A DNA stretch of 64,000 nucleotides from contig NZ_CP023865.1 in assembly GCF_003711105.1 (NCBI RefSeq), forward strand, positions 5,667,001 to 5,731,000, written 5' to 3'. Positions 37,231-39,342 of this stretch are shown here, one piece after another; the first letter of the stretch is position 1; the number at the start of each line of letters is the position of its first letter. The DNA comes from Actinoplanes teichomyceticus ATCC 31121 (GTDB taxonomy: Bacteria; Actinomycetota; Actinomycetes; Mycobacteriales; Micromonosporaceae). Both the position numbers and the translations under genes were made by a program. The notes under the pieces are model-generated. The model ran no database searches. It saw only the letters and a list, made by a program, of their open reading frames with translations, and was not told the origin of the DNA.

Positions 37231-37803
37231 GACTTGACCTTCCGGGGATTGGCGTGGGCGGCACGATCCGCCCGGGCTGACGCATGGGGGAATACGTCAT
37301 AGGCACCCGGTGTGGAATCGCTCCCAACGCGTTAGGGGATATTGCCAGAACATTTCCTACGACTCAAGCTCGGTCCCGAAACGCAAAGAGGGATCACGCC
37401 AGAAGCCACGTTTCCGCAGCTCAATAACGTTGGGCCGGGACACGACCAGCCAACCGGCCCACACGTAACAACTTTCTGGAAATTACCTGTCCGCATTTCT
37501 TCAATTGCGCCGCGCGACCGTGCGAGCGGCTCGTTCGTAACACTTCTCGCCGTATCGCGAGCCCTGCCTTCGCGCCGGAGAGGGCGCCTCGGCGCATCTT
37601 GCGGATCCGGTCATACCGCCCGTCCTGGCGGCGCGGTGGACAGCCTGGCCCGCAGACGCGGAACGCGGCGGAAAACGCCGAGGAAAAAACGTTATGCCGC
37701 AACCGGCCGGATGGTCGCACCCGGGCGATTCCCGGCCGGCTTCTCCGGCCGGGCCCGACAGGGTGCGCGGTCGCCGCCGGGACAGGCATAAAGTGACCCA
37801 GCT
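37231..37803. promoter_or_regulatory. Divergent regulatory region of xylanase operon and sigma-AbfB gene
   Basis: These 573 bases hold no supported gene. They have a lower GC content near 37340-37520 than the surroundings, the CebR-like box at 37313-37326, and presumably both promoters. The reading frame at 37342-37791 has no ribosome-binding site and no recognisable domains. I could not assign ECF -35/-10 boxes reliably. Confidence 0.5.
37313..37326. promoter_or_regulatory. Imperfect CebR-type operator before the xylanase
   Basis: TGGAATCGCTCCCA differs from the CebR palindrome TGGGAGCGCTCCCA at two positions in the left arm. It lies 83 bases upstream of the GH10 start codon. Confidence 0.6.
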
Positions 37804-39342
37804 ATGAGAGCAGTGGATGCGGACGTCGCCGCCTTGGTCACCGCGGCGCAGGGCGGCGACCGGCGGGCCCTCGCCGAACTCGTCGCCATCCACCTGCCGC
37901 TGGTCTACAACATCGTGGGACGCGCGCTGGACAGCCCGGCCGACACCGACGACGTCGTGCAGGACACCATGGTCCGCGCGGTGCGGGACCTGGCGGCGCT
38001 GCGCACCCCCGAGAGCTTCCGCACCTGGCTGGCCGCCATCGCCGTCCGCCAGGTCGGCACCCACCGCCAGCAGAAGCAGGCCGCCTCGGCGCGGACCGCC
38101 CCGCTGGAGGAGACCGCCGGCCGGGCCGACCCGGACGCGCCGGTCGAGGACGTCACGGCGCTGCGGGCCGACCTGTCCGCACAGCGGCGGGAGGTGGCCG
38201 AGGCCGGCCGGTGGCTGGACCCGGACGACCGTACGCTGCTCGCCTTCTGGTGGCAGGAGGTCGCCGGCCTGATGAGCCGGGGCGAGATCGCCGAGGCGCT
38301 GGATCTCGGCGTCGCGCACACCGGCGTGCGCATCCAGCGGATGCGTGAGCAGCTGGACCTGTCCCGGACGATCGTCGCCGCCCTGCACGCCCGCCCGATG
38401 TGCCCGCAGTTGACGGCGCTGGCCGCGACCTGGGACGGCCGGCCCGGTCCGCTGTGGCGCAAGCGGCTGGCCCGGCACGTACGCCCCTGCCCGGTCTGCT
38501 CGGCGACCACCCGTGACCGGGTCCGCGTCGAACGGCTGCTGGCCGCCGTCGCCGTTCTCACCGTCCCCGCCGGGCTGGCCCAGGCGGTCCTCGCCAAGAG
38601 CACCGCGGCCGTCGCCGGCACGCTGCCGGCCACCGCCGCGGTCGTCGGCACGAAGATCACCCTCACCGGCCTGATCGCCGGTCACCCGGTCGCCGCCGCG
38701 GTGGCCGGCACCGCCGCCGTCGCGGCGCTCACCGTTCCCGTCGTCTACCGCGTCGATCCGCACCAGCGCGCGCCGGAGGCCATCACCACACCGGCGGCCC
38801 GGGCCACGAGCGGATCGCCGCGGCCCACCCCGCGGCCGACCGGCGCCCCGTCGTCCGCCGCGGTCACGCCGTCCGCGCCCGGCGCCACGCCGTCCGCCGG
38901 CGTCCTGACCGCCGGCCGCCTGTCCCTGGAGTGGAGCGGGGGCGGCTACGTCACCGGCACCGCCGCCACCGGCGTCGCCACCGTCACCGGGATCGCCGCC
39001 ACGAGCGACCCGGCGACCCGGCAACGCGCGACCTTCACCGCCGTCGCCGGCCTGGCCGACGCCACCTGCTTCTCGTTCCGCACGGACGACGGCCGCTACC
39101 TGCGCCACTACGAGCTGCTCGCCTACACCCATCCGGCGAACAACACCCCGATCTTCCGTGAGGACGCCACCTGGTGCCCGCAGCCCGGCGTGCCGGCCGG
39201 TTCGGTCCGGCTGCGATCGCACAACTACCCGCAGTTCTACCTGCGCTGGACCGGCACCGAGTTGCGCATCAACTACGTCAAGGAGACCGCGGAGTTCCAG
39301 CGCACCACCTCGTTCCGGATCCGGTCCCCGCTCGCGCCCTGA
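37804..39342 (+). CDS. ECF sigma factor fused to zinc anti-sigma motif, membrane segments and extracellular AbfB domain
   Basis: This 512-residue protein has sigma region 2 at about 5-90 (VDADVAALVTAAQGGDRRALAELV, DDVVQDTMVRAVRDL) and region 4 at about 140-200 (IAEALDLGVAHTGVRIQRMRE). The zinc anti-sigma signature H-x3-C-x2-C follows (HVRPCPVC, about 225). Hydrophobic segments lie at about 240-262 and 275-317, then a Pro/Ser/Thr stalk (about 325-375). The C-terminal 130 residues resemble the AbfB/CBM42 arabinofuranose-binding beta-trefoil (FSFRTDDGRYLRHYELLAY, LRSHNYPQFYLRW). The simplest model is a membrane-tethered sigma factor that senses arabinose-decorated xylan outside and switches on the divergent GH10-GH62 operon. 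No separate anti-sigma gene is adjacent. ATG start; weak ribosome site. Confidence 0.85.
   Translation: MRAVDADVAALVTAAQGGDRRALAELVAIHLPLVYNIVGRALDSPADTDDVVQDTMVRAVRDLAALRTPESFRTWLAAIAVRQVGTHRQQKQAASARTAPLEETAGRADPDAPVEDVTALRADLSAQRREVAEAGRWLDPDDRTLLAFWWQEVAGLMSRGEIAEALDLGVAHTGVRIQRMREQLDLSRTIVAALHARPMCPQLTALAATWDGRPGPLWRKRLARHVRPCPVCSATTRDRVRVERLLAAVAVLTVPAGLAQAVLAKSTAAVAGTLPATAAVVGTKITLTGLIAGHPVAAAVAGTAAVAALTVPVVYRVDPHQRAPEAITTPAARATSGSPRPTPRPTGAPSSAAVTPSAPGATPSAGVLTAGRLSLEWSGGGYVTGTAATGVATVTGIAATSDPATRQRATFTAVAGLADATCFSFRTDDGRYLRHYELLAYTHPANNTPIFREDATWCPQPGVPAGSVRLRSHNYPQFYLRWTGTELRINYVKETAEFQRTTSFRIRSPLAP

Follow-up and report, generated by a model that had tools for sequence, protein, structure and literature searches.

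An ECF sigma factor with an AbfB domain as a candidate one-protein sensor of arabinoxylan in Actinoplanes teichomyceticus

Can a single bacterial protein both sense arabinose-decorated xylan outside the cell and switch on the genes for enzymes that degrade it? The question is raised by a stretch of 64,000 nucleotides of the Actinoplanes teichomyceticus ATCC 31121 genome (NZ_CP023865.1, positions 5,667,001 to 5,731,000, forward strand), referred to below as the window. Here a gene for an extracytoplasmic function (ECF) sigma factor with a C-terminal AbfB domain, which is that of carbohydrate-binding module family 42 (CBM42), lies head to head with genes for a glycoside hydrolase family 10 (GH10) xylanase and a GH62 arabinofuranosidase. 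An earlier reading made from the sequence alone (the sequence-only reading) had proposed a one-protein signal route for this gene, AbfB-ECF. Based on enzyme linkage and a shared candidate promoter, we consider it likely that the product is a membrane-tethered, self-inhibited sigma factor that senses arabinose-decorated xylan and drives promoters of the form GTTAYG-N16-RGTCG. The gene, its parts and the divergent enzyme genes are as follows.

37804..39342, plus strand: AbfB-ECF gene, 512 amino acids, with ECF sigma factor, zinc anti-sigma segment, membrane segment, stalk and AbfB/CBM42 sensor (open reading frame, Pfam, NCBIfam, PDB matches, AlphaFold2, Foldseek)
37804..38388, plus strand: sigma2-sigma4, residues 1-195 (Sigma70_r2, TIGR02937, PDB sequence matches, model)
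38401..38508, plus strand: zinc anti-sigma-like segment, residues 200-235, with C200, H225, C229 and C232 (conserved residues; helices in the model)
38536..38592, plus strand: first hydrophobic stretch, residues 245-263, with conserved proline P255 (hydropathy, alignment)
38686..38748, plus strand: second hydrophobic stretch, about residues 295-315, or 296-314 by hydropathy (hydropathy)
38758..38907, plus strand: Pro/Ser/Thr-rich stalk, residues 319-368, mostly disordered in the model (sequence; AlphaFold2)
38914..39324, plus strand: AbfB/CBM42 beta-trefoil sensor, residues 371-507 (Pfam, PDB sequence match, Foldseek, alignment)
35752..37230, minus strand: GH10 xylanase with ricin-type lectin domain, predicted target (open reading frame, Pfam)
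34185..35717, minus strand: GH62 arabinofuranosidase with ricin-type lectin domain, directly downstream of GH10, predicted target (open reading frame, Pfam)

The start at 37231 given in the sequence-only reading takes in the 573-bp gap up to the divergent GH10 gene. The architecture it had read, an ECF sigma factor followed by a zinc signature, one or more hydrophobic segments, a stalk and AbfB, was borne out by Pfam, NCBIfam, PDB matches and the structure model. Sigma70_r2 was detected at residues 26-91 (Pfam, E 4.8e-13), and TIGR02937 (sigma70-ECF) spans residues 22-184 (NCBIfam, E 8.2e-15, above the model cut-off). No Pfam match to sigma-4 was found in the protein; region 4 is nevertheless taken to be present, because chains of ECF sigma factors with known structures (sigma-E, AlgU) match the sequence over up to residues 10-187. 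The sigma-4 part is modeled as helices within a block of predicted local distance difference test score (pLDDT) >90, and the N-terminus was matched by Foldseek to sigma-E (1or7). All four residues of the zinc signature C200/H225-x3-C229-x2-C232 were found in 42/42 aligned AbfB-bearing relatives; no Pfam zinc-finger match above cut-off was found in AbfB-ECF, and the signature consists of conserved residues only. The domain search of the C-terminus that had been proposed earlier returned a significant AbfB match at residues 391-506 (Pfam, E 1e-31, 110.3 bits against a cut-off of 22.8). The fold of this region is that of CBM42, with 3kmv and 9fnk (RsgI5) matched at a target template modeling (TM) score of about 0.87 (0.86-0.88 for the 3kmv chains), so that an above-cut-off AbfB match and a beta-trefoil fold coincide. 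The AlphaFold2 model was built with 42 relatives (mean pLDDT 80.8). It is confident at residues 1-240 (weaker at 101-120) and over the AbfB domain at 371-507, and pLDDT falls below 50 at residues 300-340 and 345-365. The predicted TM score was only 0.39, and the relative placing of the domains is therefore uninformative.

In AtAbf43C, arabinose is contacted by H70, Y73 and D89 in the beta pocket and by H118, N120, Y121 and D136 in the gamma pocket (PMC12493170). The pocket histidine and aspartate were mapped onto AbfB-ECF by motif, not by superposition. Both beta-pocket residues (H435 and D454) are present in 42/42 AbfB-bearing members, as is a cysteine pair (C422/C458). At the gamma pocket, histidine is found in 21/42 and aspartate in 32/42, and the window protein has tryptophan (W482) and threonine (T501). 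By sequence motif, the arabinose-contacting His/Asp pair of CBM42 is thus found at the beta pocket; since the gamma-pocket pair is replaced, one pocket appears to have been kept and one lost.

The link to arabinoxylan enzymes was tested on the paralogs of AbfB-ECF within the genus, a family sampled here as 119 loci with 121 ECF genes among the matches listed (several lower, short or partial matches were left out). AbfB forms the C-terminus of 48/121; the other 73 end in a different domain or in nothing recognizable (a few, such as L156 and L234, have no sensor). Sensor classes are BLAST clusters of which one member each was scanned by Pfam, and the non-AbfB clusters of 34, 19 and 4 members have a GH128-like catalytic core, a right-handed beta-helix and Lcl_C, respectively, besides smaller groups. 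A GH10 or GH62 gene was found within about 9 kb of 34/48 AbfB members and 1/73 others (Fisher p 1e-17, a value that overstates independence, as related genomes are not independent). With GH43, GH127 and GH27 included, the counts were 41/48 and 1/73. The sole non-AbfB exception (L156) stops shortly after the zinc domain; on the tree it is placed within the AbfB clade. Directly flanking the 34 AbfB members with GH10 or GH62, 65 scanned proteins included 15 GH62, 11 GH10 and 8 GH43, against one GH10 among 141 scanned proteins flanking non-AbfB members. The 14 AbfB loci lacking GH10/62 had 56 scanned neighbors, including one GH54, two GH43, one GH127 and four AbfB proteins. Relative to the sigma gene, the nearest enzyme gene was upstream-opposed in 15 cases, upstream-codirectional in 12, downstream-codirectional in 9 and downstream-opposed in 5 (one of these five is really upstream-opposed); L132 was scored as downstream only through an overlong open reading frame start. 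Because several arrangements occur, the association appears to have survived rearrangement. On a quick tree the AbfB label needs six changes, four of them forced.

The same linkage was observed in separately fetched named genomes, where such enzymes were present at 8/8 Micromonosporaceae AbfB loci and a GH10 match at 2/66 other-sensor loci. Among 36 genomes of the genus, AbfB-ECF was found in 30, all of which have GH62 (30/30), and GH62 was found in 1/6 genomes without the gene (p 1.6e-5, with the same overstatement of independence). Absence of AbfB-ECF holds among the matches listed for G006, G008, G022, G024, G030 and G031; for 17 further genomes used below it holds among the matches listed by a second search. 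In either set, a gene interrupted by the end of a contig might have escaped detection. GH62 positions exclude the nine lowest-scoring matches, GH10 positions are those among the matches listed with lower ones excluded, and those of G065, G083 and G103 come from a separate scan. The claim that the sigma gene faces arabinoxylan enzymes stands, and the pairing recurs across genomes beyond chance.

A candidate recognition motif, GTTAYG-N16-RGTCG, occurs three times in the window, always within the 573-bp gap.

37691..37717, plus strand: candidate ECF promoter before the sigma gene itself, for autoregulation (motif)
37515..37541, minus strand: candidate ECF promoter toward GH10 (motif)
37443..37469, minus strand: second candidate ECF promoter toward GH10, failing the stricter flank (motif)

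Across the 47 AbfB loci 42 copies were detected (each locus counted once; 43 when two-ECF loci are counted twice), whereas the remaining 72 loci, with 73 genes, have none. With any other spacer between 11 and 21, each of the two sets gave 0-3 copies. GTTAYG is preceded by a conserved A-rich block that played no part in the search, and 36/42 sites are intergenic by our own gene calls, compared with 15% of bases. A held-out set of 8 named loci plus L287-L290 (L038 and L289 are the same place in Dactylosporangium siamense, with no site, so that 11 are distinct) had a site in 7/12 AbfB loci, with 10 sites at spacer 16 and 1 at any other spacer from 12 to 20. A single site was found in 1187 kb of 66 other-sensor named loci and none in three truncated-ECF loci; it was present in 7/20 of the loci fetched for another element discussed below (L266-L285). 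The classical GGAA(C/T)-CGT motif showed no excess in upstream regions (1/48 AbfB, 2/73 others, 34/1433 background).

A stricter form, the motif plus the flank WWNY, occurs four times in the 8.29-Mb genome. Two copies are in the 573-bp gap and two are divergent at 4127419 (minus strand) and 4127504 (plus strand), between a GH27-GH43-GH62-GH10 group and a GH10-CBM2 gene followed by a CBM2 protein. The latter has a weak Peptidase_S9 match (E 2.3e-6) and is perhaps an esterase. All strict sites of the genome (4/4) thus lie in xylan clusters. In 56 genomes, 95 strict sites were found in the 33 with AbfB-ECF and 6 in the 23 without, compared with 12 and 8 sites, respectively, for a reversed-pattern control. 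Of the 95, 39 have an AbfB-ECF within 10 kb. The number rises to 66 when listed GH10/62 genes are counted as well, in regions that together cover about 1.5%. The difference, 27/95, consists of sites with a listed GH10/62 gene as their only such neighbor, outside the loci used for motif discovery. Fetched ECF genes of the other kinds have no strict site within 10 kb (0/95), and the 6 sites from genomes lacking AbfB-ECF all lie away from listed GH10/62 genes.

These observations suggest the following route, in which ligand binding, anchoring and release are the steps that we infer. Outside the cell, the beta pocket of AbfB/CBM42 would bind terminal arabinofuranose. Inside, the zinc anti-sigma segment would keep sigma2-sigma4 inactive as long as the protein is anchored, as in the published model for ECF52/53. 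Once ligand is bound, the sigma part would be set free, with regulated proteolysis as the most likely means. In the literature, ECF48/52/53 are predicted to be controlled through C-terminal proteolysis, and SCO4117, when truncated, reportedly activated its own expression. The freed sigma factor would then use GTTAYG-N16-RGTCG, as judged from the motif, before its own gene, before GH10-GH62 and, at 4.127 Mb, before the GH27-GH43-GH62-GH10 group and the GH10-CBM2 gene with its CBM2 protein. The earlier one-protein arabinoxylan route is partly supported, by the enzyme link and by a candidate promoter shared by the sigma gene and GH10; the idea of release from a fused protein was already in print.

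Several results weigh against this reading, beyond the relatedness of the genomes behind the p-values. Seven of the 48 AbfB members have none of the tested enzymes nearby. Three Streptomyces AbfB loci have neither these enzymes (0/3) nor GTTAYG-N16-RGTCG, and two Streptomyces genes in the tree (L046, L055) fall outside the main AbfB clade. The exact site is present in only 26/47 AbfB loci, 29/95 strict sites have no AbfB-ECF or listed GH10/62 gene in their vicinity, and G002, G003 and G011 carry AbfB-ECF yet no strict site. Only 6/48 AbfB genes have the site in their own 350-bp upstream region, and with one mismatch allowed the count is still 6/48, against 3/73 others. The last result, together with an ECF-motif tie drawn from sequence only, is what one would expect if the motif belonged to another regulator co-inherited with AbfB-ECF and the ECF controlled something else. 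We regard this as unlikely given the fixed 16-base spacer, the two-block promoter-like shape and the A-rich upstream flank. It is also at odds with a similar but distinct motif upstream of the GH128-like paralogs (29/34), and with the motif being no commoner than background where AbfB-ECF is missing; G162 and G178, which have the other type of cell-wall-enzyme promoter described below, carry no copy. The sigma factor could instead be a pleiotropic developmental regulator, with the enzyme neighbors incidental or the source of a captured AbfB domain; its characterized relative SCO4117 reportedly controls secondary metabolism and sporulation. A linkage of 41/48 against 1/73 in several arrangements, and the location of all four strict genome sites in xylan clusters, make this very unlikely.

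A different objection concerns topology: there are two hydrophobic stretches, so that one or two membrane passes are possible. If both crossed the membrane, AbfB would be cytoplasmic and could sense imported arabino-oligosaccharide. In the window protein the two stretches are about equally hydrophobic (2.13 for the first, 2.11 for the second). Among 42 relatives, however, the first exceeds the hydropathy threshold in 31 and the second in 38 (below it in 11 and 4, respectively), and P255 inside the first stretch is invariant in the alignment. The stalk and the cysteine pair, kept in 42/42, fit an outside domain, and a cytoplasmic AbfB is quite unlikely. The first stretch is probably not membrane-spanning, and a single pass through the second with AbfB outside is likely the better reading. 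For the membrane segments of the sequence-only reading, two hydrophobic candidates were located (245-263 and 296-314), of which one or both may cross the membrane.

The last alternative is that the promoter of the sigma factor is another element found in the same gap.

37339..37368, minus strand: CTTGA-N7-GAAA-N4-CTGGCAAYNT element before GH10 (motif)
37313..37327, minus strand: LacI-type operator-like sequence downstream of the CTTGA element (sequence)

The family name LacI for the second feature is our assumption. The CTTGA element was found in 36 genomes as 44 exact, 15 one-mismatch and 23 two-mismatch sites, and 42/59 of the exact and one-mismatch sites are near an AbfB-ECF or GH10/62 gene. 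It precedes many plant-wall enzyme genes of Micromonosporaceae, and a LacI-type operator often comes after it. With one mismatch at most, it occurs in 26/30 genus genomes with AbfB-ECF and 0/6 without, as would a promoter of this sigma factor. It was rejected as such, and we consider the idea highly improbable, since exact copies are present in G162 and G178, where AbfB-ECF was not found, since G065, G083 and G103 have AbfB-ECF and no copy at up to one mismatch, and since variants of it lie before genes for a GH9 cellulase and a sugar-binding protein. The shape of the element (TTGA, 17-18 bases, CAAtaT, preceded by TGG) presumably fits a housekeeping promoter. The CTTGA element is probably a general, housekeeping-type promoter of cell-wall enzymes with sugar repression, and GTTAYG-N16-RGTCG is retained as the candidate for the ECF. 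A conserved GAAAC was noted within the spacer of the CTTGA element. CG-centered LacI-like palindromes were also considered in the ECF upstream regions and showed no excess (5/48 AbfB, 8/73 others, 12% of 1433 background). Elsewhere in the window, a palindromic LacI-type operator is present near position 18765, and genes for GH1, an ATP-binding cassette sugar transporter and a LacI regulator lie downstream of the sigma gene at 39403-45307.

Paralogs with other sensors suggest a wider pattern. Pectinesterase genes, identified by Pfam for two query proteins, lie beside 11/19 beta-helix members (10 of the 11 head to head) and 0/102 others; the p-value of this contrast overstates independence, because on the tree the linkage looks like one ancestral arrangement, partly lost.

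L179, L202, L203, L205, L206, L207, L211, L216, L218, L224, L225: beta-helix (pectate-lyase-like) ECFs beside pectinesterase

The GH128-like members carry GTTA[CT]-N16-[ACG]GTC (the GTTAY-N16-CGTC type) before their own gene in 29/34, mostly one conserved clade rather than independent cases. On this basis we lean toward a view of the family as modular one-protein polysaccharide switches, a fused and independent counterpart of clostridial SigI/RsgI, in which the outside domain would foretell the neighboring enzymes, each sigma factor would have a matched promoter, and sensor and promoter would have diverged together. Within the AbfB clade there is a sub-clade with Lcl_C in place of AbfB (L165, L166, L169, L198; L165 scanned). 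No tested xylan enzyme lies close to its members, which suggests that sensor swap and neighbor change go together. Some AbfB-clade members end soon after the zinc domain without a recognizable sensor (L156, L234, L049, L050), possibly through a frameshift in L049/L050; L156, L049 and L050 are still beside a GH10 gene. The GH128-like paralog is widespread (34 loci among L163-L223). The commonest neighbors of all non-AbfB members (141) are luciferase-like (32) and ATPase (25) genes, which appear to belong to the GH128-like class. The C-terminus of L047, L065 and other Streptomyces paralogs looks like what we take to be a CAP/SCP domain.

How much of this is new? ECF52/ECF53, represented by SCO4117 of Streptomyces coelicolor, are described with an ECF domain, zinc domain, membrane segment, Pro-rich extension and C-terminal carbohydrate-binding domain, a make-up that AbfB-ECF appears to share, and proteolytic release has been proposed for them. 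SCO4117 differs in having a smart00776 module, adjoining atrA and having the putative motif CSGYN-17-SRHA; AbfB-ECF has AbfB, xylan enzymes and GTTAYG-N16-RGTCG. Members with carbohydrate-binding or hydrolase domains appear in print as predictions, without validation for hemicellulases. Two traits of the group were found in AbfB-ECF: sigma2-sigma4 with a C-terminal zinc domain (zinc by conserved residues), and a C-terminal carbohydrate-binding or hydrolase-like domain (AbfB, and Glyco_hydro_cc or beta-helix in the paralogs). Of a third, membrane helices with a Pro-rich extension, the stalk is present and one or two passes are possible. The smart00776 module of SCO4117 is presumably NPCBM. Because the fused architecture and proteolytic release of ECF52/53 were already published, the earlier suggestion that the pairing may be undescribed appears to hold only for this sensor, its enzymes and its promoter. 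For a fused AbfB sensor with enzyme neighbors and a predicted promoter, no published description was found in the literature searched, which was thin in subscription papers. Proteins of this make-up are common in databases, with 1339 hits in a search. The best 120 of the 1339 each have AbfB and sigma domains and, where named by their source, are mostly called no more than sigma factor; several are from Streptomyces, outside the tree sample. With sensor, likely substrate enzymes and candidate promoter together, an arabinoxylan circuit becomes open to direct testing, and many sigma factors that are annotated yet uncharacterized can be read by the same rule; a single-gene biosensor is a possible use.

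Fusion of sigma and anti-sigma in one membrane protein is also known from Pseudomonas putida IutY (ECF243), for which release through Prc and RseP is described; IutY differs in serving siderophore signaling. The CBM42 domains of AkAbfB (GH54) and AtAbf43C share with AbfB-ECF the beta-trefoil with arabinose pockets and the beta-pocket His and Asp. They belong to enzymes, whereas the domain described here is on a regulator and has lost the gamma-pocket His and Asp. IutY is not known to have a sugar-binding domain. A functional likeness is seen to SigI5/RsgI5 of Clostridium thermocellum, where CBM42 likewise faces outward, in a sigma switch that serves plant-wall enzymes. In that system sigma and anti-sigma are separate proteins, the latter (RsgI) with a periplasmic domain that cleaves itself. 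AbfB-ECF is one polypeptide with a zinc-type anti-sigma segment; Pfam detected neither an RsgI N-terminal domain nor an autocleaving domain in it, and the sigma factor is in the same chain rather than a separate SigI. The parallel to clostridial SigI/RsgI that had been drawn from the sequence is supported, as the RsgI5 CBM42 (9fnk) matches the AbfB-ECF C-terminus both in sequence (E 2.6e-10) and in fold.

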